From contig JACAEX010000014.1 of the NCBI GenBank assembly GCA_013388635.1, forward strand, positions 62,001 through 126,000: a stretch of DNA of 64,000 nt. The letters are read 5' to 3'. The translations under genes and the position numbers were made by a program. A model generated the notes under the pieces. That model worked only from the letters and a program-made list of their open reading frames with translations, made no database searches and was not told where the DNA came from. Positions 10,434-31,207 of this stretch are shown here, one piece after another; position 1 is the stretch's first letter; each line of letters starts with the position of its first letter. Source of the stretch: Syntrophaceae bacterium. Lineage in GTDB: Bacteria; Desulfobacterota; BSN033; UBA1163.

Positions 10434-11498
10434 ATGGGAGATCAAAATCCAGAAAAGATGTTGGTGAAAGGGAATGAGGCCCTGGCCATGGCTGCCATCG
10501 ATGCAGGCTGTCTCCTCTACTTCGGCTATCCGATCACCCCTCAGAATGACATACCGGAGTACCTTTCGAAGCACCTCCCTCCTTTGGGCGGTGAATTCAT
10601 CCAGGCGGAGAGCGAAATTGCCTCCATCAATCTCCTCTTGGGAGCTTCGGCCACGGGAAAGAGGGCCATGACCTCCTCCTCAAGCCCTGGGATCTCTCTC
10701 ATGCAGGAAGGAATCTCCTATATGGCAGGAAGCGAGCTCCCAGGACTGATCGTCAACATCTCAAGAAGTGGACCAGGCCTTGGCGGAATCTCACCCTCAC
10801 AGGGCGACTATTTTCAGGCCACCCGGGGCGGCGGACATGGAGACTATCGGATGATCGTCCTCGCTCCCTCCACCATCCAAGAGATGTACGATCTAACCAT
10901 TCTTGCATTTGACCTGTCTGACAAGTACCGAAATCCGGCGATGATTCTCGGAGATGCTCTCATCGGACAGATGAAAGAACCTCTCCTGAGGAGAAGGCCT
11001 GAGAAGATAGACCTTCCCCCGAAGGATTGGGCGTTGACCGGAGCCAAAGGGAGGAAGCCCAACCGGCTTAAATCGCTCTATCTTCAGGATGGTGAACTCT
11101 CGGAGCATAACTGGAAGCTCTACCAGAAGTACGAACGGATGAAAAGGGAGGAGGTCCGTTTTGAGACCCTTCTCACAGAGGATGCCAAACTGGTTGTGGC
11201 CGCCTTCGGAAGCATGGCCAGGGTTTCGAAGTCCTCTGTCGAGTTGGCCAGGGAGGAAGGGATGAAGGTCGGCCTCTTCCGTCCGATCACCCTCTTCCCC
11301 TATCCGGAGAAGGCCCTTCACGATCTCTCAAAACGCGTGAAACGATTCTTAACCGTGGAACTCAATACTGGCCAGATGGTGGAGGACGTGAAGCTCTCGG
11401 TCGACCGGGATGTCGAGGTCTATTTCTACGGAAGGCCTCCAGGATCGCTTCCCACTCCGGAGGAGATACTGGAGGAGATTAGAAAATACTACGGATAA
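10434..11498 (+). CDS. korA: 2-oxoacid:ferredoxin oxidoreductase, alpha subunit
   Basis: 354 residues from the ATG at 10434, preceded by GGAGG; the frame extends upstream into korD but that part is out-of-frame shadow. N-terminal KGNEALAMAAIDAGCLLYFGYPITPQNDIPEYL and EAEIASINLLLGASATG-like segments are the pyrimidine-binding region of the POR/KOR family. The C-terminal half (VVAAFGSMARVSKS..., VGLFRPITLFPYP) is the transketolase C-domain. Pairs with KorB to decarboxylate a 2-oxoacid with CoA, reducing ferredoxin, or the reverse. The gene order favours 2-oxoglutarate; a branched 2-oxoacid (VorB-like) is possible. Confidence 0.9.
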   Translation: MGDQNPEKMLVKGNEALAMAAIDAGCLLYFGYPITPQNDIPEYLSKHLPPLGGEFIQAESEIASINLLLGASATGKRAMTSSSSPGISLMQEGISYMAGSELPGLIVNISRSGPGLGGISPSQGDYFQATRGGGHGDYRMIVLAPSTIQEMYDLTILAFDLSDKYRNPAMILGDALIGQMKEPLLRRRPEKIDLPPKDWALTGAKGRKPNRLKSLYLQDGELSEHNWKLYQKYERMKREEVRFETLLTEDAKLVVAAFGSMARVSKSSVELAREEGMKVGLFRPITLFPYPEKALHDLSKRVKRFLTVELNTGQMVEDVKLSVDRDVEVYFYGRPPGSLPTPEEILEEIRKYYG

Positions 11499-11647
11499 AA
11501 TCCGAAGCACGAAACAAATTCAAAGCTCCGATTACCAAATGTCCAAAAATCTTTTGGTCATTCTAATTTCGGTAATTTGGATTTGTTTCGGATTTTCCGC
11601 CAAAGGCGGATCTGCTTTGGCATGACGATATTCGGATTTCGGATTTA
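11499..11647. repeat. Palindromic spacer copy A, with CCGCCAAAGGCGG hairpin
   Basis: It starts CCGAAGCACGAAACAAATT and ends with TTTGTTTCGG, an embedded CCGCC/GGCGG hairpin, GGCATGACGATATTCGG and ATTTCGGATTTA. A closely similar copy lies at 22715-22867 between livH and livM. Fills the korA-korB spacer. Confidence 0.85.
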
Positions 11648-11658
11648 AGGAGTTAAAG

Positions 11659-12411
11659 ATGGAGCTTGTCTTCAAACGTCCGGAGTGTCTCATTGATGTC
11701 CCTTTCCACTTCTGCCCGGGCTGCCATCACGGAATTGCCCACCGTTTGGTCGCAGAGGCCATCGATTACTTCAAGATCAGGGAGAAGACGATTGGGGTGG
11801 CCTCGGTGGGCTGTTCTGTCTTTATGTATGACTATTTTGACATCGACGTCCTCGAGGCACCCCACGGAAGGGCTTCTGCTGTGGCCTCAGGGGTGAAGCG
11901 GGCGAGGAAGGACCGGATCGTCTTCACGTATCAGGGCGATGGAGATCTGGGCGCCATCGGCATTGCCGAAGGCATCCATACGGCCAACCGGGGTGAAAAC
12001 ATCACCCTCATCTTTGCCAATAATGGAATCTACGGAATGACCGGCGGGCAGATGGCGCCGACCACCCTTCTCGGCCAGAAGACGACCACGAGCCCTTACG
12101 GAAGAGACTTCACCTACGACGGTTATCCCATCCGAATGGCAGAGATGCTGGCCACGCTTGAGGGAAGCGCCTTTGTGGCCCGTGTGGCGGTGAACAATCC
12201 GGCCAATCTGATGAAGGCAAAAAAGGCGGTCCGCAAGGCCTTTCAGATGCAGATCGAAGAGATGGGCTTCTCTTTCGTCGAGTTTTTGTTGGCCTGCCCC
12301 ACCAACTGGGGCCTCTCTCCCTTAGAGGCAAACCGTCGGGTTGAAGAGGAGATGATCCCCTACTTCCCGCTTGGGATCCTGAAGGAGAGGAAGATGGCAG
12401 ACTATCTATGA
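11659..12411 (+). CDS. korB: 2-oxoacid:ferredoxin oxidoreductase, beta (TPP) subunit
   Basis: 250 residues with AAGGAG before the start. CPGCHHGIAHRL near the N-terminus, the TPP signature YQGDGDLGAIGIAEG, and NNGIYGMTGGQMAPTT are all diagnostic of the beta subunit. The early cysteines fit the conserved CPGC motif of KorB. Works with KorA in the cytosol. It is separated from korA by a 160-bp palindromic spacer, unusual for genes of one enzyme. Confidence 0.93.
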   Translation: MELVFKRPECLIDVPFHFCPGCHHGIAHRLVAEAIDYFKIREKTIGVASVGCSVFMYDYFDIDVLEAPHGRASAVASGVKRARKDRIVFTYQGDGDLGAIGIAEGIHTANRGENITLIFANNGIYGMTGGQMAPTTLLGQKTTTSPYGRDFTYDGYPIRMAEMLATLEGSAFVARVAVNNPANLMKAKKAVRKAFQMQIEEMGFSFVEFLLACPTNWGLSPLEANRRVEEEMIPYFPLGILKERKMADYL

Positions 12412-12530
12412 GAATAACCAATCACCAAATACCAATAACCAAAGAAATTCCAATCACCAATATCCAAGTTCCATTTGGTTATTGGAAAATGGGTCATTGG
12501 TTATTATTTGAAGCTTGGGATTTGGTTTAT
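12412..12530. repeat. Palindromic spacer with 7-bp periodic arms (CCAATNN)
   Basis: The left arm is a run of heptads CCAATCA, CCAAATA, CCAATAA, CCAAAGA, then CCAATCA, CCAATAT, CCAAGTT. The right arm carries the inverted TTATTGG, AAAATGG, TCATTGG, TTATTAT units. Fills the korB-korC spacer; the korC start lies at its edge. Confidence 0.8.
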
Positions 12531-12532
12531 TG

Positions 12533-13108
12533 ATGATCAGCAGAATTATGAGTGGTGATCGTTTTTATTATGATGTGATCATGGCGGGCTTTGGGGGGCA
12601 GGGCGTGATGTTGATCGGAAACCTCCTGGCCTATGCCGCCATGAAGGAGGGAAGGCACGTCACCTACCTTCCCACCTATGGAGTCGAGATGAGGGGTGGG
12701 ACGGCCAACTGTACAGTGGTGATCTCCTCCAGGGAGATCGGCTCTCCTGTTGTCGAAAGGCCCCATGGCGTGGTCCTGATGAACCTTCCATCCTTGTTGA
12801 AATATGAGCAGCGGGTGCTTCCCAAAGGACTTCTGCTCTTCAACTCGTCCCTGATCGATCCCAAAGAGGCTTCACGCAAAGATATCGAAGTCCTTCCCGT
12901 CCCTGTCAACGACATGGCGATTGAAAATGGAAACCCCAGGCTGGCCAATATGGTGGCCCTGGGAGCTTTTGTCGAGAAGACCAAATTGGTACGAATGGCC
13001 TCCCTCTTCGAATCCCTGGAAAAGGTGCTGGACGAACGCTACCGTCAATTCATCCCGCCCAACATCAAGGCGATTGAGCTGGGGGCCAGATTTGTTCAAT
13101 CCCTTTAA
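12533..13108 (+). CDS. korC: 2-oxoacid:ferredoxin oxidoreductase, gamma subunit
   Basis: About 191 residues from the ATG at 12533; an ATG at 12548 is equally possible, while the TTG at 12515 lies in the palindromic repeat. The N-terminal AGFGGQGVMLIGNLLAYAA and the YGVEMRGGTANCTVVIS segment are the classic gamma-subunit signatures. No strong ribosome site is seen for any start. Completes the four-subunit enzyme. Confidence 0.9.
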   Translation: MISRIMSGDRFYYDVIMAGFGGQGVMLIGNLLAYAAMKEGRHVTYLPTYGVEMRGGTANCTVVISSREIGSPVVERPHGVVLMNLPSLLKYEQRVLPKGLLLFNSSLIDPKEASRKDIEVLPVPVNDMAIENGNPRLANMVALGAFVEKTKLVRMASLFESLEKVLDERYRQFIPPNIKAIELGARFVQSL

Positions 13109-13151
13109 AGCCCTCGACCGGATAGGGCTCAGGGAGGAGAAAGGAAAGACC

Positions 13152-13742
13152 ATGGGAGAAGAGAAATCCTTTGAGGAGATCCGGGTCGGAGAGAAGATTA
13201 AACGATTGAGAGACCAAAAGGGGCTCTCGCTCAAAGAGGTGGCCGATCTAACAGGGTTTTCAACCGCGCTCCTTTCCCAGATGGAGAACCACCTCGTCTC
13301 CCCTTCCCTCGGGACCATGATCAAACTGGCCAGGGCATTGGAGGTGAAGGTGGGAGACTTTCTCGGTGAGACCGAGGGAGAACCCTTCACGATTGTGAGG
13401 AAGGATGAGAGAAAGAAGGTCTCCCGGTTCGCCTCAAAGGACGGCGTGAAATACGGCTACTCCTACGAGTCGCTGGGATTTGAGAAGAAGGATCGGCACA
13501 TGGAGCCCTTCATCGTCACCCTGGAACCCGCGACGGTCAAGAGCTCCAAAACCTCTGTCCACGAGGGAGAGGAGTTTATCTTCGTTTTGGAAGGGGAGAT
13601 GGAAGTGATCCTCGGAAACCATACGGATGTCCTCTACCCGGGAGACTCGATCTATTACGATTCGACCATCCCTCACCGGGTCCAATGCCACCAGGACAAA
13701 GTCACCAGAATTTTAGCCGTCCTTTATACTTCCAGTACATAA
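13152..13742 (+). CDS. XRE-family regulator with C-terminal cupin sensor domain
   Basis: 196 residues from the ATG at 13152, preceded by GGGAGGAGAAAGGA. Residues 10-70 form a Cro/CI-type helix-turn-helix (GEKIKRLRDQKGLSLKEVADLTGFSTALLSQMEN). Residues 115-190 form a cupin barrel with the HEGEEFIFVLEGEMEV and GDSIYYDSTIPHRV motifs. Such regulators bind a small acid or amine in the cupin and control nearby catabolic genes. It follows korC by about 40 bp and probably regulates the kor/liv region (inference). Confidence 0.9.
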   Translation: MGEEKSFEEIRVGEKIKRLRDQKGLSLKEVADLTGFSTALLSQMENHLVSPSLGTMIKLARALEVKVGDFLGETEGEPFTIVRKDERKKVSRFASKDGVKYGYSYESLGFEKKDRHMEPFIVTLEPATVKSSKTSVHEGEEFIFVLEGEMEVILGNHTDVLYPGDSIYYDSTIPHRVQCHQDKVTRILAVLYTSST

Positions 13743-13762
13743 AGCATGAGAATAAGCAACCA

Positions 13763-15052
13763 ATGAGAAGCGCTAAATCCCGAATAGACTCCAACAGACA
13801 AAATTCAAGATTCAAGATTCGTTTGGGTCATTGGATCTTTGAGATTTGGAATTTGTTCGGGTCCTGGGATTTTGGATTTGGAATCTGGCTCCGCCTCTCC
13901 TTTTGTGCCCTTCTTTTCTCCGTCATCGTACCTATTCCTTGTTTCGGCCAGCCGCCTCTCAAGGTGGGCTGTCTCATCCCGCTCGCAGGCCGATGGGGAG
14001 AATCGGGAAGGGAATGCGCCAGGGGCATGCTCGATGCCAGCAAATGGCTCAACCAGAGGACAGGAGTCTTTGGGATGAAGCTGGAGATCCTGCTCATCGA
14101 CGACACTTCCCAGCCCGCTGAGACAGTGGCCGCGTTCCGGAAATTGAATGAGACAGACCAAATCCTTCTTCTCTATATCTACTCCACGGAGACGACCCTC
14201 GCCCTTCTCCGTCATATCCACTTCTATCGCATCCCTGCGCTGACGAGTTCTCTTTCGCCTCCTTTCACCAACCCTGCCAAATATCCCTATCTCTTTGCGG
14301 TCAATCCGACCCCTCTCGACCTGTCAAGAATCGCAATGAAGTTCATCTCGGAAAGATCCGGGATTAAGGCGAGAAAGCCAAAACTGGTCTTTGTCGGTTC
14401 TCCTGACCATTTGGGTCAGCATTTTCTGGATGAGGCAAAGCAGTACGGAAAATCGATCGGACTCGACATCGGGCCGGACATCTGGGTCTCTGACCTATCC
14501 CCTTCAGGCGATGCCATAAAAGGATTGTCCTCTCCCCTTCTCAAGATGAGCGCGTACAATCCTGATTACGCCTACGTCAGCCTCTCTCCGAAAGAGATAT
14601 CCTTCCTTCTACAGCAGGCCAAGGAGATGGACTTCCGAACCAGATGGATTTGCAGCATGAAGGGATTTGATGAAACCCTTATCCCATACGACGGTCTTCT
14701 TGGGGTTCAACCGGTCGCACCGTTTGGAGAAGATGTCCCGGGAATGGTCGGGATCAGGGAGGCCCATCAGAGATGGCATCCCTATGACTCTCATACCCTC
14801 TCATATGTTGAAGGATGGGCGAGCCTTCTGGTAATGGCAGAGGCCCTCGGAAGATCGCTTCCAGAACAGGGATTTTCACGGGAAAGGGTAAAACTCGCTT
14901 TCGAGACTCTTAAAGATTTCGTCATCGGTGGCCTTATCCCGCCCGTGACCTTTACTGCCAAGGACCATCGCCCGAGCGTTGAATCCAGAATCTTCATCAT
15001 CAAAGACGGGAAGCTTTCGCGACAGACCGGTTTTATCTCCATAGGAAGGTAG
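13763..15052 (+). CDS. Branched-chain-type ABC transporter substrate-binding protein (LivJ/K family)
   Basis: A periplasmic-binding-protein type I fold: PLKVGCLIPLAGRWGESGRECARGM is the typical N-lobe start, followed by TSSLSPPF and the long C-lobe. A hydrophobic signal sequence (LSFCALLFSVIVPIPCFGQ) ends at about 13950. The true start is uncertain: the ATG at 13763 would add about 40 residues encoded by a palindromic repeat, so translation may begin at a non-ATG codon near 13853. Presumably binds an amino acid or organic acid for a Liv-type transporter; the nearest permease genes are at 21.8-24.7 kb. It may instead serve as sensor partner of the kinase that follows. Confidence 0.85.
   Translation: MRSAKSRIDSNRQNSRFKIRLGHWIFEIWNLFGSWDFGFGIWLRLSFCALLFSVIVPIPCFGQPPLKVGCLIPLAGRWGESGRECARGMLDASKWLNQRTGVFGMKLEILLIDDTSQPAETVAAFRKLNETDQILLLYIYSTETTLALLRHIHFYRIPALTSSLSPPFTNPAKYPYLFAVNPTPLDLSRIAMKFISERSGIKARKPKLVFVGSPDHLGQHFLDEAKQYGKSIGLDIGPDIWVSDLSPSGDAIKGLSSPLLKMSAYNPDYAYVSLSPKEISFLLQQAKEMDFRTRWICSMKGFDETLIPYDGLLGVQPVAPFGEDVPGMVGIREAHQRWHPYDSHTLSYVEGWASLLVMAEALGRSLPEQGFSRERVKLAFETLKDFVIGGLIPPVTFTAKDHRPSVESRIFIIKDGKLSRQTGFISIGR
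13796..13882. repeat. Palindromic spacer element overlapping the annotated 5' end of the next gene
   Basis: Contains TTCAAGATTCAAGATTCG repeats on the left and GATTTGGAATTTG, GGGATTTTGGATTTGGAA units on the right. It has the same word style as the other spacers (GTTTGGGTCATTGG is also present in the 12412 element). It lies inside the open frame of the solute-binding protein, upstream of the signal peptide core. Confidence 0.6.
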
Positions 15053-15113
15053 GGGGAGTTTGCAGTTTTAATCTGCTTGACCATGAGCAGTGAAAGTGAT
15101 AAATTCCCCTTGA

Positions 15114-16631
15114 ATGAACCTTGAAGAAATCCTCAAAACACACCGCAAACAAATTGTAGATGAGTGGATTTATCGGCTCCACACAGAGGTGAGTGAACGC
15201 TATTCTGCTCGACCGGTAGACGAACTCTTCCGCACCGTCTCAAAAGCAAATGAAGCCAATTATGCTGTGCTCGTCTCTAAGGATTTTTCCGAGATTAATG
15301 ACCATATTCATTGGATCACCAATTTACGCCTTGAGGGAGGCTTTTCCCTTTCAGAAGTCCAGAGTGCTTATGAACTCTACAGGACCGTTCTCTTTCCTAT
15401 CCTTCCAAACGAATTAAATGAGAAAGACCTCCATGCAGCATTGAAGAATATCAATTACTGCCTCTTTTATACCATTACAAGATTCAGCAACTATTTCCAG
15501 TCCTTACATGAGAAACATATAAGAGATTATGCTCAAAATCTTGAGAGCGAAGTCGAAAAAAGAACAAAAGAACTGGCTGAATCAGAGTCGAAATACCGCA
15601 TTCTCATTGAAGAGATCAATGATGGTTATTTTGTTACTCAGAAGGGGGTCATCGTTTTTGCCAATCAGGCTTTCTGCAACATGCACGGATATACCCTCCC
15701 GGAAATTATCGGAAAACCCTACACAGAGCTGGTCGCCCAGAAATCCTTACCCATCGTGCAGCGGATTTACGAGAAAGGAACGATCGGAGAAGCCACGGAT
15801 GACGTTTATACCTACTTTAGGCGCCACAAAAACGGCAGTACATTCCCAACGGAGAATAAGATAAAGTGGATTCTTTATCAGGGTGATTATGCTGTGGCAG
15901 GTATCTGCAGGGACATCACGGAGAGGATTGAAACGGAGAAGCGAATTCGGGAATCTGAGCGTCTTGTTCATATAGGAAAACTGACCACCTCCCTCGCCCA
16001 TGAGATACGAAATCCTCTCTCATCCGTGAAGATGAATAGTCAGATCATCTTGAAAAATATGGAGTTTCGTGGGAACGACAAGAGACGGATGGAGATCATT
16101 GTCAATGAGATCTCTCGCTTAGAAAGAATCCTTGATGAAATGCTTGATTTTGCAAGGCCTATAAAATTGAATCTCGAACCGGTCTCCATCAATCGCGCCA
16201 TAGATTCCTGCCTTGAGATCCTGGATGCCAAAATGAGGGAAAAGAACATCCGTGTGAAAAAGTTTTATGGCAAGGGATTATCCTCTATCCCTGCTGATCG
16301 TGAAAAGATAGAACAGGTTGTGATCAATATCCTCCTGAATGCCATCGAAGTCCTCCCAGAAGGTGGAAAGATAGAGATCGTGACAAGGCAATTGGGGATG
16401 GAAAACAGGGCTCTTGAGGTGGAGATCAGTGACGATGGGCCTGGGATCAGTCCGGAAGACCTTCCCTATGTTTTCGATCCCTTCTTCAGCAACAAAAAGA
16501 AGGGCACCGGCCTGGGGCTCTCAAACGTAAAAAAGATCATCGAAGCCCATGGGGGCACAGTGGACGTGGCGATCCGGAAACCCCATGGAACACAGGTCCA
16601 TTTTACCATTCCACTCAGGGAGGTGAGATGA
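15114..16631 (+). CDS. PAS-domain sensor histidine kinase with RsbRD-like N-terminus
   Basis: 505 residues, cytosolic (no transmembrane segment seen). Residues 1-130 resemble the RsbRD N-terminal domain. A coiled stretch follows, then a PAS domain (about 160-275), and a HisKA dimerisation domain with phospho-accepting His296 in SLAHEIRNPLSSVK. The HATPase domain has N-box INILLNAIEVL, G1 DDGPGIS, F-box DPFFSNKKKGTGLGL. It is an NtrB-type kinase; its 3' end overlaps the sigma-54 regulator gene (ATGA), so they form a two-component pair. The signal is unknown; adjacency to binding proteins suggests substrate availability. Confidence 0.93.
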   Translation: MNLEEILKTHRKQIVDEWIYRLHTEVSERYSARPVDELFRTVSKANEANYAVLVSKDFSEINDHIHWITNLRLEGGFSLSEVQSAYELYRTVLFPILPNELNEKDLHAALKNINYCLFYTITRFSNYFQSLHEKHIRDYAQNLESEVEKRTKELAESESKYRILIEEINDGYFVTQKGVIVFANQAFCNMHGYTLPEIIGKPYTELVAQKSLPIVQRIYEKGTIGEATDDVYTYFRRHKNGSTFPTENKIKWILYQGDYAVAGICRDITERIETEKRIRESERLVHIGKLTTSLAHEIRNPLSSVKMNSQIILKNMEFRGNDKRRMEIIVNEISRLERILDEMLDFARPIKLNLEPVSINRAIDSCLEILDAKMREKNIRVKKFYGKGLSSIPADREKIEQVVINILLNAIEVLPEGGKIEIVTRQLGMENRALEVEISDDGPGISPEDLPYVFDPFFSNKKKGTGLGLSNVKKIIEAHGGTVDVAIRKPHGTQVHFTIPLREVR

Positions 16632-18004
16632 AGGCGAAGAGAATTCTCATCATTGATGATGAACGTTCCCTTCTTGAAACCCTTGAGATGTTCCTTACCG
16701 AGAAAGGTTACTCAGTTCGGTGTGCCCTCTCTGGAAAAGAGGGTTTGAAGCAGTGCAGTCTCTTCGATCCTCATGTGATCATTCTGGACATCCGCCTCCC
16801 TGACAGGGATGGTCTGGAAGTGCTTCAAGAACTGATCCAGAATGATAAAAAGAACATTATCATCATTACAGCATTTCATGATATGGATATAACGATTAAG
16901 GCTGTGAAATTAGGAGCCTTCGACTATATCCCCAAACCCATAGACGTGGAAGAACTCGATCGGGTGATCGATAAGGCCCTAAAATCTTTAAGCCTGGGAC
17001 GAACGGTCGAGGAGGATGTATGCATAGATCCTTCCTTATCCTATTTAAGTGGCAAGATCATCGGCAAGAGCAAGGGAATTAAAGAGATCTTTAAGGCCAT
17101 TGGAATACTGTCAGAAAACCGGGTCACCGTCCTCATCGAGGGTGAAACAGGTACGGGCAAGGAGCTGATCGCAAGGGCAATCCATTGTAATAGCCCTTAC
17201 AGGGAGGAGCCTTTCCAGGCCATCAATTGTTCAACCATTGTGGGCACCCTCCTGGAAAGCGAACTCTTCGGTCACGAGAAGGGAGCTTTCACCGGGGCAT
17301 TCGGTTTAAAGAGAGGGAAGTTTGAACTCGCAGGTCATGGGACGATTTTCCTCGACGAAGTTGACGATCTCCCTCTTACGCTCCAGTCGAAAATCCTAAG
17401 GTTCTTGCAGGAAAAGGAGTTTGAACGTCTTGGGGGAGAAAAGAAGATCAAATCGAACGCAAGGGTCATCGCCGCAACCAACAAAGACCTTTGGAAGATG
17501 GTAAAGGAAGGCACCTTCAGAGAAGACCTCTTCTACAGACTCAATGTGGCCAATATCAAGGTACCCCCGCTCAGGGAGCGTAAGTCGGATATCCCCCTTC
17601 TGGTTGAGTATATCCTCAGAAAAATCAGCCAAGAGTTGAGCAAAAGCATAAAAAAAGTTGAAAAGGAAGCGCTGAAGAGAATGATCGAATACGATTGGCC
17701 TGGCAATGTAAGAGAATTGGAAAATGTCCTTACCAATGTTGCCCTCAATACCCCAGGGGAGGTCATCCTTGAAGAAGCGATCGCTCCCTTGTTGGGACAA
17801 AAGCTGAACATCCATCAGAATCCGATCTATCTTCTCAATAAGAAACAGAATCTCAAGGATATCGAGAAGGAGCATATCCTTGAGGTCCTTAACCATACCC
17901 AGTGGCATTTGGGCAAGGCCTGTCAGATCCTCGGAGTTTCACGGCCTACCCTCCGCCATAAACTCAAAGCGTACGAAATTTCAGGCGATCGGAAAACGAT
18001 TTAG
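16628..18004 (+). CDS. NtrC-family sigma-54-dependent response regulator
   Basis: 458 residues: receiver domain with phospho-acceptor Asp54 (ILDIRLPDRDG) and the K of YIPKP. The central AAA+ domain (about 140-370) has Walker A GETGTGKE, the sigma-54 contact loop GAFTGAF and Walker B-type GTIFLDEVDD. The C-terminal Fis-type helix-turn-helix is LGKACQILGVSRPTLRHKL. It activates RNA polymerase-sigma-54. A consensus sigma-54 promoter lies 128 bp beyond its stop, before the first transporter gene, making that the natural target (inference). Confidence 0.95.
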   Translation: MKAKRILIIDDERSLLETLEMFLTEKGYSVRCALSGKEGLKQCSLFDPHVIILDIRLPDRDGLEVLQELIQNDKKNIIIITAFHDMDITIKAVKLGAFDYIPKPIDVEELDRVIDKALKSLSLGRTVEEDVCIDPSLSYLSGKIIGKSKGIKEIFKAIGILSENRVTVLIEGETGTGKELIARAIHCNSPYREEPFQAINCSTIVGTLLESELFGHEKGAFTGAFGLKRGKFELAGHGTIFLDEVDDLPLTLQSKILRFLQEKEFERLGGEKKIKSNARVIAATNKDLWKMVKEGTFREDLFYRLNVANIKVPPLRERKSDIPLLVEYILRKISQELSKSIKKVEKEALKRMIEYDWPGNVRELENVLTNVALNTPGEVILEEAIAPLLGQKLNIHQNPIYLLNKKQNLKDIEKEHILEVLNHTQWHLGKACQILGVSRPTLRHKLKAYEISGDRKTI

Positions 18005-18131
18005 ACAACCGTACTCGTTTGAAACTATTTTTCAAAAAGTAAAAGAGCTTTTCAACTCAACCTGAACAATAGGTTCCACTCAAACCCTTTAACGCATTGG
18101 AATTATACTGATTACCTGATGAAAGGCGGGT

Positions 18132-18147
18132 TGGCACGCCTGTTGCT
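18132..18147 (+). promoter_or_regulatory. Sigma-54 (-24/-12) promoter
   Basis: TGGCACGCCTGTTGCT matches the sigma-54 consensus with GG and GC separated by exactly ten bases. Expected start of transcription is about 18158, giving a 5' leader of about 60 nt to the ATG at 18220. It directly follows the NtrC-type regulator gene. Upstream, at 18021-18040, an ACT-ATTTTT-C-AAAAAGT inverted repeat could be an activator site. Confidence 0.85.
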
Positions 18148-18219
18148 AACCTCATCATCTCGTGATGATTTGAAATTGGGATCCAATTGGGATCCAAATG
18201 AGTGAGAAAGGAGAGGGTG

Positions 18220-19476
18220 ATGATGAAAAAAAAGAGACTGATCGGTGGCCTTTGTGTACTCTGGATAAGCTCCGTTTTATTTCTCCTCCCAGCTTTAGCA
18301 CAGGAAAAACCTGTTAAATTGGGAGTCCTCTTCATCATGTCCGGTCCAATGGGAGGATATGGCAAACATGGCATGCAGGCGGTTCAGCTTGCCGTGGATG
18401 AAATCAATGCCCGGGGAGGGATCCTCGGCCGAAAGGTGGAGGCCCTCTTTGAAGATACAAAACTTAAGGCTGACTTGGCGACCCAGATCACAAAAAGATT
18501 TATCCTTGAGGACAAAGTCGATTTTATTATCGGCCCTACATCCAGTGGAGTGGCGGTGGCCGTATCAAAGGTTGTGACAGAACACAAAAAAATCCTCGTC
18601 TTGACACAAGCTGCTGCAGATTCCTTAACCGGAGACCAGTTCAGTCGTTATCAGTTTGCAACCCTGAGCAATGCCATGATGCATTCCCGCGCCGGAGCCA
18701 TCTATTTGGCCTCAAAGCCCTACAGGCGGTGGATGTGCATTGGCCCCAACTATAACTACGGGTGGGATTCCTGGGCCCAATTCAAGGCAAAATTGAAAGA
18801 ACTAAGGTCTGATGTAGAGTTCATTGGCGAATTATGGCCGAAGCTGATGGAGAAGGATTTCACCCCTTTTATCCAGAAGATCATAGAAGCGAAACCCGAT
18901 GCGGTCTGGTCTCCTCTCTGGGGGATGGACGCGGTGAACTTCATCAAACAGGGAATCCCTTTGGATCTCTTTAATAAAATCAAATTCGCCTTCCCCGACG
19001 GAGCGGCCTTAGAAACATTGTTGCCCCTGGGTAAGGATATGCCAAAGGGTATCTACGTGGCCGCCCGGTACTTCTTTCTGACGCCAGATACAGAAACGAA
19101 TCGGCAATTCGTAAAAAATTATATGGATCGATTCAAAGATTATCCCGACTATATGGCAGCAGAAACCTATGCGGGTGTCTATTTTATCAAGGCCGCCATC
19201 GAACGGGCAGGAACTCTGGACACAGAAAAGTTAATCGAGGCGATCGAGAAGGAACCTCTCGCCTGGGAAACCCCTGAGGGTTGGAAGATCATGAGGAAGG
19301 AGGACCATGCCGTGGTGGAGGATGTCGTCTGGGGCGAAACGATTTACAGTGAAAGATACGGGTTTTCGATCCTCAAAAATATGCAAGCCATTCAAGGAGA
19401 AGAAATTTGCAGGACCCCGCAAGAATTGAAAGAGGTTCGTGCCAAATATGAAAAGAAGATAAGGGGAGAAAAGTGA
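18220..19476 (+). CDS. Branched-chain-type ABC transporter substrate-binding protein
   Basis: About 418 residues from the ATG at 18220, which has AAGGAGAGG just upstream; a GTG at 18202 is less likely. Signal peptide MMKKKRLIGGLCVLWISSVLFLLPALA then the mature EKPVKLGVLFIMSGPMGGYG of type I periplasmic binding proteins. Two lobes follow (IIGPTSSGVAVAVSKV; AETYAGVYFIKAAIERAG). It collects a substrate in the periplasm for the LivHMGF-type permease encoded downstream. First gene after the sigma-54 promoter. Confidence 0.93.
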   Translation: MMKKKRLIGGLCVLWISSVLFLLPALAQEKPVKLGVLFIMSGPMGGYGKHGMQAVQLAVDEINARGGILGRKVEALFEDTKLKADLATQITKRFILEDKVDFIIGPTSSGVAVAVSKVVTEHKKILVLTQAAADSLTGDQFSRYQFATLSNAMMHSRAGAIYLASKPYRRWMCIGPNYNYGWDSWAQFKAKLKELRSDVEFIGELWPKLMEKDFTPFIQKIIEAKPDAVWSPLWGMDAVNFIKQGIPLDLFNKIKFAFPDGAALETLLPLGKDMPKGIYVAARYFFLTPDTETNRQFVKNYMDRFKDYPDYMAAETYAGVYFIKAAIERAGTLDTEKLIEAIEKEPLAWETPEGWKIMRKEDHAVVEDVVWGETIYSERYGFSILKNMQAIQGEEICRTPQELKEVRAKYEKKIRGEK

Positions 19477-26464: not shown

Positions 26465-27259
26465 ATGGCAAGGTCCAAGTCCCTTCTGGCAAAAACCCGA
26501 TTCTTCATCCTCTCCATACTCATCCCTCTCTTCCTATGGCAGTCCGCAGAGAGCTCGGATCTTCGCATCCCCATCCTGCTCTACCATCGCCTCGGCCCGG
26601 TTGCGGCAGACAGCATGACCCTACCAACATCTGCGTTCCACTCCCACCTAAGGTATTTTCAGAGCCACGGCCATCGGGTTATCGCCCTGCGGGATCTGGT
26701 CGATTATCTCCTTGGGAAAAAATCCCCTCCTCCACCAGGATCGCTCGTGATCACGGTCGATGATGCGCACTGCTCTGTCTACACCGAGATGTTGCCTCTC
26801 GTAAAAAAATACAACCTTCCTATCACCCTTTTTGTTTATCCCTCGGCCATATCGAACGCCTCTTATGCGATGACATGGGACCAGCTCAGAGAGATAAAAC
26901 AGATCGGCCTTCTCGACATCCAGTCCCATACGCTCTGGCATCCCAACTTCAAGAAAGAAAAGAAGAGATTAAAACCCGGGGAATACGAGGAGTTTGTTGA
27001 AAGGCAGCTCAAAAGGTCGATGGAAAGGCTCCAGAAGGAACTCGGAGTCAAGGTGGAGATGCTGGCATGGCCCTTTGGCATCTACGACGAATGGCTGATC
27101 AGCAAGGCGGTTCAGGCCGGATATGTGGCTGGCTTTACGATGGAGCGGAGGCACGTCACTGCCTCTGATCAGATCATGGCCCTTCCCCGTTACCTCATCG
27201 TTCACCAGGAGAAGGAAAGTCCTGAAAATATGATCCGGCGCCTTCTCCAGACCAGGTGA
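26465..27259 (+). CDS. Polysaccharide deacetylase (NodB-homology) family protein
   Basis: 264 residues with an N-terminal signal or anchor (residues 11-30). NodB motif 1 is present as VITVDDAH (usual TFDDG), motif 2 as SHTLWHPN (metal histidines), motif 3 as LAWPFG. IPILLYHRLGP at the start of the mature part is typical of exported deacetylases of the PgaB/IcaB or peptidoglycan type. It acts in the envelope on N-acetylated glycans. Its start lies 9 bp after the ligase stop, but the function does not match the transport cluster and fits better with the cell-wall genes that follow. Confidence 0.9.
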   Translation: MARSKSLLAKTRFFILSILIPLFLWQSAESSDLRIPILLYHRLGPVAADSMTLPTSAFHSHLRYFQSHGHRVIALRDLVDYLLGKKSPPPPGSLVITVDDAHCSVYTEMLPLVKKYNLPITLFVYPSAISNASYAMTWDQLREIKQIGLLDIQSHTLWHPNFKKEKKRLKPGEYEEFVERQLKRSMERLQKELGVKVEMLAWPFGIYDEWLISKAVQAGYVAGFTMERRHVTASDQIMALPRYLIVHQEKESPENMIRRLLQTR

Positions 27260-27363: not shown

Positions 27364-27379
27364 TGGCACTTTCCTTGCA
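27364..27379 (+). promoter_or_regulatory. Sigma-54 (-24/-12) promoter
   Basis: TGGCACTTTCCTTGCA matches the consensus with ten bases between GG and GC. Predicted transcription start near 27390, about 28 nt before the ATG at 27418. It would drive the DUF4015 gene and the hydrolase-NamZ fusion as an operon. Confidence 0.82.
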
Positions 27380-27417
27380 GTTAAGTATGGAAAAAAGAAA
27401 GAAGAGAGAGAAAAGAG

Positions 27418-28770
27418 ATGCTCCAGAAGGCTTCGATTTTCTTCTCCAGTCTTGCCAATAAATTCAACAGATTATACCTCAACAAAAACCATACTATCCC
27501 CCTAAAAAAGAGCTTTTTGTGGACCTTTCAAATCTCGCTGACCATTCTATTTTTGTCAATTCCCGGTAACACTTTTGGGTATACGATTGGAAAGGTGGTC
27601 GATTTCTTTACGAAGAGGCCTCTCAAAGGAGCAATTATTGTCAGCAGTAGCGGCCAGTACATCGAGCAGACCGATGACAACGGCATCTTCTGTGTGAAGG
27701 AGAATGGGACCAGGGTGGCAGCCAGGGCCTATGGATACTTGAGGACTTACCAGAAGCTCTTTCCGCCTCTGACACCAGTCCCTCCCGAGGTCAAGCTCTT
27801 TCCGTTCAGACCCAAAGCCCTCTACCTCTCCTTTTACGGCATCGGAGAAAGATCCCTTCGAGAATCGGCCCTGAGGCTGATCGAGGAGACAGAGCTCAAC
27901 GCCCTTGTCGTCGATGTGAAGGGAGATCAGGGCATGATTTCCTACAGGACCTCAGTCCCCCTCGCCTCGGAGGTCGGCGCCCAGAAAAAGATAACCGTGA
28001 AGGACATGGAAGGGCTGATGGCCACCCTGAAGGAGAAGCGGATCTATACGATCGCACGGATCGTCGTCTTTAAAGACAATCTCCTTGCCATGAAGATGCC
28101 TGAGCTGGCGGTGAGGAACCATAGAGGAGAGATTTGGCGCGATCGGGAAAACCTCGCATGGGTCGATCCGTTCAGGAAAGAGGTCTGGGATTACAATATT
28201 GAGATCGCTGTGGAGGCCGCTCTCCGCGGATTCGATGAGATCCAGTTCGACTATGTCCGGTTCCCTGAGACCACCGGCCTCCGGTTTTCCATGCCAAACA
28301 CAGAGGAGAACAGGGTCAAGGCCATCTCCGGATTCCTCGCCGAGGCAAAAAGGAGACTGAAACCCTATAACGTCTTTCTTGCCGCAGACATCTTCGGTTA
28401 CGTCTGCTGGAATCTCAACGACACGTTCATCGGACAGAGACTTGACGAACTCATAGCCCCGCTCGACTACCTCTCTCCAATGCTCTACCCATCGGGCTTC
28501 CAGTATGGCATTCCGGGCTATCGCCTCCCTGTTGCAAACCCATATGAAATCGTATATCTTTCCCTCAAAAAAGCCCAGGAACGCTCCGGTCTATCATCCG
28601 TCCGATTCAGGCCATGGCTCCAGGCCTTCAGAGACTATGCCTTCGATAAGAGAGGCTTCCACGGAGATGAAATCAGGAGCCAGATCAGAGCAGCTGAAGC
28701 CTTTGGCTCCCATGGCTGGATGCTCTGGAATCCATGTAACATCTATTCTCGGGACGGACTGAGAGATTAG
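27418..28770 (+). CDS. DUF4015 putative glycoside hydrolase
   Basis: 450 residues. An N-terminal hydrophobic segment around residues 37-58 follows a positively charged stretch (signal anchor). A short carboxypeptidase-regulatory-like beta module comes next (GKVVDFFTKRPLKGAIIVSSSGQ, residues 58-120). The main TIM-barrel-like domain follows from about 135, with KALYLSFYGIG, ALVVDVKGDQG, VDPFRKEVWDYNIEIAVEAALRGFDEIQFDYVRFPE and LSPMLYPSGF, characteristic of DUF4015 (PF13200). The EIQFDYVRFPE segment bears likely catalytic acids. Probably acts on an envelope glycan. Transcribed with the fusion gene 13 bp downstream. Confidence 0.88.
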   Translation: MLQKASIFFSSLANKFNRLYLNKNHTIPLKKSFLWTFQISLTILFLSIPGNTFGYTIGKVVDFFTKRPLKGAIIVSSSGQYIEQTDDNGIFCVKENGTRVAARAYGYLRTYQKLFPPLTPVPPEVKLFPFRPKALYLSFYGIGERSLRESALRLIEETELNALVVDVKGDQGMISYRTSVPLASEVGAQKKITVKDMEGLMATLKEKRIYTIARIVVFKDNLLAMKMPELAVRNHRGEIWRDRENLAWVDPFRKEVWDYNIEIAVEAALRGFDEIQFDYVRFPETTGLRFSMPNTEENRVKAISGFLAEAKRRLKPYNVFLAADIFGYVCWNLNDTFIGQRLDELIAPLDYLSPMLYPSGFQYGIPGYRLPVANPYEIVYLSLKKAQERSGLSSVRFRPWLQAFRDYAFDKRGFHGDEIRSQIRAAEAFGSHGWMLWNPCNIYSRDGLRD

Positions 28771-28783
28771 GCCTCTTGACCCA

Positions 28784-31207
28784 ATGGAGCCCTCAGGGAG
28801 GCTGAGAACTGTGACATGGCCAAAAAAGCTTCTCATCACACTGACCCTGTCCACCCTCATTCAGCCACTTCTCCCAAACCTGGTCAGAGGCCAGGAGAGG
28901 CCGGAATCCATCCCCCGGCTTGACGAAAAGCAGCTGACCGCCATCGCCGGAATCGTGGAAAGGGCGATCCGCGTCGGCAGGATTCCTGGCGCTGTGGTTT
29001 TGATTGGACACCAGGGCAGGATTGTCTACCGCCGTGCCTTCGGTCATCGGGCGATCAGACCGAAAAGGCTGCCCATGACCGTGGACACGGTCTTTGATCT
29101 CGGCTCGTTGACCAAGGTGGTGGCCACCACCACGGCAGTCATGCAGCTCTCTGAAAAAGGAAGTCTGCGAATCGAGGACCGGGTTTCAGAGCATTGGCCG
29201 GAATTCAAGGATAGCGGAAAGGAAGAGATCACCGTTCGAGACCTCCTCACCCACTATTCCGGTCTTAGAGCAACTCTCAAGATGAGGCCGGAGTGGTCCG
29301 GCTACAATGGAGCCCTCCGGATGATTCTAACGGAGAAGCCCCTCGCCCCTCCGGGGAGCCGTTTTATCTACAGCGATATTAACTTCATCATCCTCGGCGA
29401 GCTGGTCCGTCAGATCTCAGGCCGATCCCTCGACCTCTACTGCGCTGAACATATATTCAAACCTCTCGGGATGAAGAAGACAGGCTTCAAACCTCCGGCC
29501 TCGCTCAGGAGCCGGATCGCCCCGACCCAGCATCAGCATGGAAATAGAGGAAAGATCCTCTGGGGAGAGGTCCATGACCCTGTAGCCTACCGGATGGGTG
29601 GCGTGGCAGGCCATGCCGGCCTCTTCTCCACGGCTGATGACCTCGCCCTCTTCAGTCAGGCACTCCTCGACGGCGGGAGTCGGAAAGGGGTGCGAATCCT
29701 GAGCCCGCTCACCGTTGAAAAGATGACCACTCCGCAGACACCGCTCAACAAGAACGTCTTGAGAGGTCTGGGCTGGGATATCGGCCCACCCTTTGCTCCC
29801 AACCGGGATGAACTCTTTCCGGCAGGCTCCTACGGACACACCGGCTTCACCGGGACCTCGATCTGGATCGACCCGATTTCCAAAACCTACATCATCCTCT
29901 TGACCAACCGGGTCCACCCTGACGGAAGGGGCGATGTGAGTTTTCTTCGCTCGCAGATCACCGCGCTCGTTGCCTCTGCACTCGAACCCCTCTCGCAGGA
30001 AAAGATCCTGTCGATCCATCCATCTCTCGGCAGCCATTACGAAGCCGCAAGGTCCAATCGCATCCATCGCTTTCGTGAGGGCAAGGTTCAAACTGGGATC
30101 GATCTCCTGAAGGCCCAGAAGTTTGAACCCCTCTGGGGTCTGCGCATCGGGCTGATCACCAACCATTCAGGCCTCGATTCAAACGGAAGGCGCACCATTG
30201 ACCTCCTCTACGAAGCACCACGGGTGAAGCTGGTCGCCATCTTTGTCCCGGAGCATGGCCTCTCCGGGTCGATGGAAGGGAAGATCCCTTCCTCGACAGA
30301 CCCTAAGACCGGTCTCCCTGTCTACAGCCTCTATGGAGAAACCGATCGGCCCCCGGAAAAGATACTCAACGCTCTCGATGCCCTGGTCTTCGATATCCAG
30401 GAGGTGGGAGTTCGTTTCTTCACCTATGTCACCACCCTGGGCTATGCAATGGAGGCTTCGGCCAAGAGGGGTCTGGCCTTCTATGTCCTCGATCGGCCCA
30501 ATCCGATCACCGCTTCGTTCGTTCAGGGCCCTGTGATGGACGGAGATCTGAAATCCTTTGTCGGTTATTTTCCCATGCCCCTCCGCCATGGCATGACAGT
30601 CGGTGAGCTGGCTTCCATGTTCAATGCCGAAAATCGGATCGGTGCCGATCTACACATGATCCGGATGCGCGGTTATCAGCGCACGGATTGGTATGACGAG
30701 ACAGGCCTGCTCTGGGTCAATCCCTCTCCCAACTTACGAACGCTCAACCAGACGATCCTCTACCCAGGAGTGGCCATGGTCGAAGGAGCCAATGTCAGTG
30801 TGGGAAGGGGAACGGATACGCCCTTTGAGCTCTTAGGTGCTCCGTGGATCAAAGGGAGAGAGCTTGCCGACTACCTGAATGGAAGAAAAATCCAGGGCGT
30901 CCGGTTCATGCCCGTCGACTTTATACCAAGGGCCAATCGTTTTGAGAATCAGTTGTGCCACGGCATCCAGATCGTCCTGGTGGATCGCCACTCATTGGAC
31001 TCCCCAGGCCTCGGCATCGAGATCGCCAGCGCCCTCTATCGGCTCTATCCCGACGACTTCCAGATCGACAAAACACTGCCTCTGATCGGCTCTCGAGAAG
31101 TCCTCCAGGCCATCAAGGACGGCCAGGACCCAGTTTCTATCGCTCAAAGCTGGCAAGCCTCTCTCGAAATGTTCAACAGGATAAGATCAAAATACCTGCT
31201 CTATTAA
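28784..31207 (+). CDS. Fusion of serine hydrolase (beta-lactamase fold) and NamZ-type exo-N-acetylmuramidase (DUF1343)
   Basis: 807 residues. N-terminal signal peptide (LLITLTLSTLIQPLLPNLVRG); a GTG at 28811 with GGGAGG upstream is an alternative start. Residues 45-400 are a class C beta-lactamase/AmiE-like hydrolase with SxxK (Ser108-Lys111, GSLTK), a YSD triad element and HTGFTG. Residues about 440-807 are a DUF1343/NamZ domain (LRIGLITNHSGLDSNG, IFVPEHGLSG, VFDIQEVGVRFFTY, VNPSPNLRTL). In Bacillus, amidase-like AmiE, NamZ and NagZ are neighbouring genes for recycling peptidoglycan; here two of these activities appear joined in one exported protein. Expected role: trimming or scavenging of muropeptides in the periplasm. 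Confidence 0.9.
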   Translation: MEPSGRLRTVTWPKKLLITLTLSTLIQPLLPNLVRGQERPESIPRLDEKQLTAIAGIVERAIRVGRIPGAVVLIGHQGRIVYRRAFGHRAIRPKRLPMTVDTVFDLGSLTKVVATTTAVMQLSEKGSLRIEDRVSEHWPEFKDSGKEEITVRDLLTHYSGLRATLKMRPEWSGYNGALRMILTEKPLAPPGSRFIYSDINFIILGELVRQISGRSLDLYCAEHIFKPLGMKKTGFKPPASLRSRIAPTQHQHGNRGKILWGEVHDPVAYRMGGVAGHAGLFSTADDLALFSQALLDGGSRKGVRILSPLTVEKMTTPQTPLNKNVLRGLGWDIGPPFAPNRDELFPAGSYGHTGFTGTSIWIDPISKTYIILLTNRVHPDGRGDVSFLRSQITALVASALEPLSQEKILSIHPSLGSHYEAARSNRIHRFREGKVQTGIDLLKAQKFEPLWGLRIGLITNHSGLDSNGRRTIDLLYEAPRVKLVAIFVPEHGLSGSMEGKIPSSTDPKTGLPVYSLYGETDRPPEKILNALDALVFDIQEVGVRFFTYVTTLGYAMEASAKRGLAFYVLDRPNPITASFVQGPVMDGDLKSFVGYFPMPLRHGMTVGELASMFNAENRIGADLHMIRMRGYQRTDWYDETGLLWVNPSPNLRTLNQTILYPGVAMVEGANVSVGRGTDTPFELLGAPWIKGRELADYLNGRKIQGVRFMPVDFIPRANRFENQLCHGIQIVLVDRHSLDSPGLGIEIASALYRLYPDDFQIDKTLPLIGSREVLQAIKDGQDPVSIAQSWQASLEMFNRIRSKYLLY

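Follow-up and report, generated by a model that had tools for sequence, protein, structure and literature searches.

What does a protein that joins a serine hydrolase of the AmiE type to a NamZ muramidase do in a bacterial cell, and with which partners does it act? The question is raised by a 64,000-nucleotide stretch of the draft genome of a Syntrophaceae bacterium (GenBank assembly GCA_013388635.1, contig JACAEX010000014.1, forward-strand positions 62,001 to 126,000; hereafter the window), in which a gene for such a fusion follows genes for a DUF4015 protein and a polysaccharide deacetylase. These three genes form a unit that is conserved in other genomes and on plasmids, and that probably constitutes an operon for processing or trimming peptidoglycan, with three exported enzymes acting in a periplasm of the Gram-negative type. 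An earlier note on this DNA had singled out the fusion, its DUF4015 partner and a sigma-54 promoter.

A conserved trio of genes

The unit consists of the following genes:

26465..27259, plus strand: polysaccharide deacetylase, CE4-type and PgaB/IcaB-like, 264 aa, with which the conserved trio starts (PF01522, 74 bits)
27418..28770, plus strand: DUF4015 protein, 450 aa, with a signal region, an N-domain (58-110) and a TIM-barrel, glycosidase-like domain (134-443) (PF13200, 389.7 bits)
28784..31207, plus strand: predicted AmiE-type serine hydrolase fused to a NamZ exo-beta-N-acetylmuramidase, 807 aa (PF00144, PF07075 and PF20732)

The deacetylase gene is followed after 158 bp by the DUF4015 gene, and this after 13 bp by the fusion gene; an AMP-dependent ligase ends 9 bp upstream of the deacetylase. 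The DUF4015 partner had been recognized correctly, but the conserved unit starts at 26465 with the deacetylase and not at 27364, and this third partner was absent from the earlier note. Besides the window, the complete trio was found in 19 other genomes or plasmids, whose carriers include members of the same family, Nitrospirae, Zoogloea, Paraburkholderia, Burkholderia, Cupriavidus and others (loci L002, L003, L031, L039, L048, L052, L054 and L060; genomes G003, G008, G009, G010, G060, G077, G191, G167 and G166, with the deacetylase of G009 cut by the contig end; and plasmids of Burkholderia savannae, L193, typed as conjugative, and Cupriavidus metallidurans, L194, typed as mobilizable). Deacetylase homologs lie directly upstream of DUF4015 in relatives; in G100 the two genes are adjacent and the fusion is on a separate contig, and in L031 and L052 the DUF4015 gene overlaps the fusion gene. 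That a Burkholderia and a Cupriavidus plasmid carry the trio points to a cassette able to move in one piece. No description of the trio was found in the literature searched, which covers subscription journals thinly and does not include the founding papers on NamZ and AmiE.

The association can be quantified in 198 genomes of the window's phylum, where standalone NamZ is the common form; 116 of 117 NamZ matches, from 113 genomes, were entered (a sub-cut-off fragment in G084 was left out), and 13 of them lie in frames of at least 660 aa. This long-frame class is set by frame length and includes G111 and G042, where PF00144 was left unchecked; the G042 locus (L121) was scored as unfused. DUF4015 occurs within 4 kb of 8 of the 13 long-frame NamZ genes vs. 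none of the 103 others (Fisher p = 2e-9, uncorrected for relatedness); this count is based on the 15 strongest of 29 DUF4015 rows, and none of the other 14, compared by eye, comes that close to a NamZ match.

The AmiE-NamZ fusion protein

The domains of the fusion protein are placed as follows:

28961..29929, plus strand: predicted AmiE-type domain (residues 60-382), with S108-L-T-K111, Y196-S-D198 and H352-T-G354
30146..31204, plus strand: NamZ domain by Pfam (NamZ_N 455-654, NamZ_C 658-807)

Within a single frame, the Beta-lactamase (259.4 bits), NamZ_N (267.9 bits) and NamZ_C (159.4 bits) models match far above their cut-offs, and the whole-genome search reports no internal stop, so that the earlier description of an SxxK hydrolase and a DUF1343/NamZ domain in one 807-residue protein is confirmed in coordinates, length and domain content. 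The hallmarks of AmiE-type S12 enzymes are SxxK, YxD/N and HxG/KTG motifs, and the fusion combines this set with PF00144. Across 16 aligned diverse fusions, S108, K111, Y196, D198, H352 and G354 are invariant, with some variation in the motif residues between them, and E490, D537, R544, D570, R571, E667 and R675 are invariant in the NamZ part. Matches in the PDB include 4k05 and 4jja of the DUF1343/NamZ family as well as S12 esterase/beta-lactamase entries. The N-termini of the fusion and of the DUF4015 protein look, by eye, like Sec-type signal peptides, in keeping with the export that had been proposed for the fusion.

A scan of genome contigs with the fusion as query found 150 places that encode a relative, and the best 80 were kept, unfused relatives ranking lower; both parts share one frame at all 80 kept loci (tblastn), and all three Pfam domains are present in 16 of 16 sampled fusions. 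By record title, the carriers comprise Nitrospirae, Acidobacteria, Planctomycetes, Burkholderiales, Nitrospirillum, Verrucomicrobia, Armatimonadota and others. In a tree of 133 NamZ domains, built by a quick method with standalone rows from the window's phylum and plasmids only and with most fused rows found by the fused query, the 92 fused rows form a single group (SH-aLRT 100; one change, vs. a mean of 35.4 in shuffles); for the rows sampled, the fused NamZ domains are one clade. The architecture was tabulated in 2008 as "DDPept-DUF1343" with one example, YP_439122.1 (PMC2605481), the sole paper returned by a literature search on DUF1343 and beta-lactamase. The 80 kept loci, the single clade and the printed record rule out both an assembly error and a novelty: the AmiE-NamZ fusion is old, widespread, already in print and not peculiar to this genome. 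As a separate observation, the fusion is encoded at 62% identity on L006, a 3.2-kb contig that has been assigned to a Methanoregula metagenome-assembled genome; contamination of this bin by bacterial DNA is suspected.

Mapped on the same tree, the DUF4015 neighborhood is confined to one part of the fusion clade. Among 87 labelled fused rows, 20 are positive for DUF4015; all of these fall within one 33-row clade (support 96), and the DUF4015 state needs at least two changes, with short-flank loci outside the main clade counted as lacking it. A single gain of DUF4015 with later loss fits this pattern; horizontal transfer of the association may also have played a part.

The roles of the two halves as amidase and muramidase are predicted from family knowledge, and the S12 domain in particular invites another assignment. 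It may be a DD-carboxypeptidase or esterase of the PBP4B-like kind instead of an amidase, in which case peptides and sugars would be trimmed independently: the closest curated NCBIfam model is PBP4B (194.8 of 385 bits, below cut-off), and the nearest solved folds are esterases such as EstG, in line with the S12 esterases and beta-lactamases among the structure matches. Against this assignment stand the constant linkage of the domain to NamZ within a single polypeptide and the adjacency of AmiE and NamZ in Bacillus and haloarchaea, an assignment that we consider a real but lesser possibility; it is compatible with a wall-trimming operon and concerns one step of it.

The DUF4015 protein as a candidate cell-wall enzyme

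The DUF4015 family has a PDB homolog, 4s1a, that was deposited as an uncharacterised protein. A model predicted from 9 sequences (mean predicted local distance difference test score, pLDDT, 81.9; predicted template modelling score, pTM, 0.81) retrieved 4s1a first in Foldseek, followed by Cwp19 twice and by the spore cortex-lytic enzyme SleL. In VIA-align comparisons, the model matched Cwp19 with Z 24.9 (root-mean-square deviation 3.1, 290 aligned) and the C-terminal domain of Escherichia coli PgaB with Z 23.8 (3.4, 301 aligned); beta-galactosidases and hexosaminidases reached Z values of about 19-20. For Cwp19, lytic transglycosylase activity on peptidoglycan has been measured (PMC6016235); in this enzyme an Asp-Tyr pair follows strand 4, an Arg is conserved and the strand-7 Glu is missing (PMC5765458). 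In the DUF4015 alignment D278, Y279 and R214 are invariant; read by eye in the alignment rather than by superposition, these residues, together with the absence of a Glu where strand 7 ends, appear to correspond to the Cwp19 features. The N-domain (58-110) weakly resembles CarboxypepD_reg domains (CarbopepD_reg_2, E 0.0078, 16.7 of 32.2 bits). A literature search for DUF4015 yielded one paper only, a sporulation study that mentions it in a figure legend, where DUF4015 and deacetylase domains are each found fused to YkyA domains (PMC12700454).

Its place beside the same two partner genes, here and in distant bacteria, makes DUF4015 a promising candidate for a novel enzyme that cuts the cell wall. 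A bolder proposal, which we put forward tentatively and hold to be more doubtful than the operon itself, is that DUF4015 enzymes are a family, so far overlooked, that cleaves peptidoglycan (as lytic transglycosylases or muramidases) and, with a dedicated deacetylase, feeds AmiE-NamZ and replaces NagZ where this is missing, as a mobile wall-trimming cassette shared across phyla. In a side cluster on a Paenibacillus guangzhouensis plasmid (L195), an 1895-aa protein with SpoIID, GHL10, Big and cohesin domains (10767-16454) lies among murQ, anmK and NamZ genes; its GHL10 part is a Cwp19 homolog (E 9.9e-119).

Proposed pathway and its weighing

NamZ is specific for peptide-free ends of N-acetylmuramic acid (MurNAc). 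We infer the activities, their substrate and the order of the steps from the families concerned, as follows. The CE4 deacetylase would edit N-acetyl groups on the glycan; the DUF4015 enzyme, with its TIM barrel of the Cwp19/PgaB fold, would cut the glycan strand in the manner of a muramidase or a lytic transglycosylase, leaving short chains and free ends; the AmiE domain would remove stem peptides from the terminal MurNAc, and the NamZ domain would then take off the denuded MurNAc at the non-reducing end. Fusing the last two steps could allow the denuded end to pass between the two sites. According to PMC10653849, AmiE belongs to PF00144 and does not attack intact peptidoglycan, and in Bacillus subtilis AmiE and NagZ act sequentially on released muropeptides (PMC5061867); since AmiE acts on released muropeptides and not on intact peptidoglycan, a partner that makes ends is plausible.

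Several observations weigh against a peptidoglycan-processing operon of this kind. DUF4015 lies upstream of the fusion at only 10 of the 70 assessable loci among the 80 kept (L055 and L080 are partial), and in the phylum no DUF4015 is near 5 of the 13 NamZ genes in long frames. TIM barrels are a common fold with many specificities, and an alpha-L-fucosidase comes close behind Cwp19 and PgaB in the VIA-align comparison (Z 22.6). The GHL10 family (PF02638) is absent from the Pfam matches of DUF4015 at E <= 10, and hhalign of DUF4015 with one GHL10 domain returned a probability of 0.5%. The AmiE label is provisional, PBP4B-type or esterase S12 enzymes being inseparable from it here, and the deacetylase is closest to deacetylases of poly-N-acetylglucosamine.

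The last point leads to a different account, in which the trio serves a PNAG-like (poly-beta-1,6-N-acetylglucosamine-like) exopolysaccharide: the deacetylase and DUF4015 would be a split PgaB that acts on a poly-hexosamine, and AmiE-NamZ either an unrelated neighbor or an enzyme for the same decorated polymer. The best PDB match of the deacetylase is 4u10, a poly-beta-1,6-GlcNAc deacetylase (E 2.6e-18), followed by 6dq3, 4wcj and 5bu6 (BpsB/PgaB), and the NCBIfam PgaB/IcaB models match below cut-off (PgaB, 101.3 of 321.9 bits); in its fold, DUF4015 resembles the hydrolase domain of PgaB almost as closely as it does Cwp19. Yet the fusion joins the deacetylase-DUF4015 pair in 19 of 20 other loci, across phyla and on plasmids, NamZ belongs to a family of MurNAc enzymes, and no PNAG synthase was noticed by eye among the open reading frames (ORFs) between 24000 and 36000, the genome as a whole not having been searched for one. 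The exopolysaccharide account is the least probable of those considered, and the peptidoglycan-processing operon is preferred.

MurNAc recycling genes

If the enzymes process peptidoglycan, their products might also be imported and catabolised for growth, as in the MurNAc operon of Bacillus; the earlier note had spoken of trimming or scavenging. The enzyme pair is the same as in Bacillus, and in haloarchaea, which lack murein, comparable genes adjoin those for an anhydroMurNAc kinase and for transporters. In this draft genome (completeness 95.43%), however, neither GH3/NagZ nor AnmK was found, and MurQ-like matches reached only 39 and 33 bits, against a cut-off of 302; the search covered these three families and did not extend to AmgK, MurU or MurNAc transporters. 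On these results, the rescue route of the Bacillus type is not evident in this genome, and scavenging for growth is improbable, if somewhat less so than the exopolysaccharide account. A role in peptidoglycan processing remains the best reading of the unit; scavenging along a known MurNAc route is unsupported.

Whether DUF4015 stands in for NagZ can be judged from the distribution of GH3 genes in the phylum. A GH3 gene on the same strand within 6 kb accompanies none of the 13 long-frame NamZ genes vs. at least 25 of the 103 others (p = 0.07), a lower bound, as G049, G085 and G146 are among the matches missing from it, and most rows from NamZ-less genomes and some second copies were left out. 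Six of the nine genomes with a strong DUF4015 match (>360 bits) have a GH3 gene elsewhere (G060, G077, G191, G167, G166 and G100), and genomes of the same family that lack the fusion lack GH3 as well (G001, G002, G004 and G006). On these three counts the idea of DUF4015 as a strict replacement of NagZ is weakened.

A related gene set occurs on seven haloarchaeal plasmids (L192 and L196-L201; Halorussus and Haladaptatus). All seven carry genes for an AmiE-like hydrolase, an uncharacterised protein, NamZ, NagZ and an anhydroMurNAc kinase; genes for an ABC transporter substrate-binding protein, a GH18 protein and an IclR regulator are present in six, the seventh being cut by the end of the record each time, and a peptidoglycan-recognition gene in three. 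To our knowledge, archaea have no murein, and the island looks like one for the use of bacterial wall fragments. The middle gene is annotated as glycosidase-like in one plasmid; its product resembles DUF4015 weakly (17.5 and 12.5 bits against a cut-off of 27; hhalign probability 43% over 89 columns). A term search of PMC12352652 turned up neither DUF1343 nor NagZ nor Halorussus.

A sigma-54-type element

The following element lies between the deacetylase and DUF4015 genes:

27364..27379, plus strand: sigma-54-type -24/-12 element TGGCACTTTCCTTGCA, starting 54 bp before the DUF4015 ATG

This intergenic element is a perfect textbook match (TGGCAC-N5-TTGCA) with the right spacing. Genome-wide there are 17 copies of TGGCAC-N5-TTGC vs. 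3 of the reversed pattern, so that as a class such elements are more than chance; when ORFs are called crudely, 11 of the 17 lie outside ORFs and 9 start no more than 100 bp before an ORF on the same strand, fractions that have no control. The element is not shared by relatives: TGGCAC-N5-TTGC was found before neither gene in any of the 20 other deacetylase-DUF4015 loci, the stretches covered being at most 500 bp ahead of the deacetylase gene and 300 bp ahead of the DUF4015 gene (shorter at contig ends). Looser matches occur in two loci (TGGCTC-N5-TTGC before the G060 deacetylase, and two non-consensus matches in L193), a match in L101 was rejected as an indexing artefact, and several loci leave no room for a promoter between the two genes (14 bp in L003, 4 bp in L129). 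The sigma factor gene rpoN was not found in this draft genome (G000) with PF04552 and TIGR02395; it is present in 15 of the 17 family genomes searched (this one is counted among the 17), and an assembly gap possibly accounts for its absence. Because the element was not found at relatives' operons, nor rpoN in the draft, sigma-54 control of the trio would be a local feature at best, and it is ruled out as a defining trait of the operon; the earlier note was right about the element itself, and its picture of a sigma-54-regulated unit is weak.

A second strong element of this type lies at 18132 in the window, before a gene for an ABC substrate-binding protein of the branched-chain amino-acid type. 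By ORF reading, the window holds two NtrC-type regulators, one just ahead of this element, where region 15114-19476 contains a histidine kinase and NtrC-type regulator pair followed by the element and the substrate-binding gene. The regions before the elements at 18132 and 27364 share no 8- or 9-base word and eight 7-base words, and a comparison of palindromes was likewise fruitless. Genes after other sigma-54 elements in the genome resemble AmtB, DsrA and response regulators, as read by eye from their N-termini.

Comparison with known systems

The fusion by itself is ordinary; it is the trio that gives DUF4015 a testable function and suggests an alternative to NagZ-dependent breakdown of muropeptides. 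If DUF4015 does cut peptidoglycan, one more TIM-barrel family would join the lytic enzymes of the cell wall. The nearest fold match of the DUF4015 model by VIA-align, the Cwp19/GHL10 lytic transglycosylase, belongs to a different Pfam family and has no significant sequence relation to it. PgaB is comparable in that the deacetylase resembles PgaB/IcaB and the DUF4015 fold resembles the PgaB C-domain; PgaB, however, unites deacetylase and hydrolase in one protein, whereas here they are separate proteins and the deacetylase stays under the PgaB cut-off.

For the fusion, the closest precedents are the Beta-lactamase (DD-peptidase)-DUF1343 proteins represented by YP_439122.1 (PMC2605481), which join the same two families with no difference seen at the domain level; the published table holds one example, and the present survey kept 80 loci of 150. 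RmNag3 of Rhodothermus marinus (PMC6987092) is likewise a glycosidase with a signal peptide that is fused to an S12 domain, with a role in peptidoglycan turnover proposed as here, but its partner is a GH3 N-acetylglucosaminidase with the S12 domain at the C-terminus, in place of NamZ. The system in B. subtilis shares an AmiE-type S12 hydrolase adjoining NamZ; amiE, nagZ and ybbC (namZ) are separate neighboring genes there (PMC5061867), which bears out the earlier note's remark on Bacillus. In contrast to these rescue genes, which are accompanied by nagZ and murQRP, the two enzymes of the Syntrophaceae genome are fused and stand with a deacetylase and a DUF4015 protein in a genome in which no NagZ was found.

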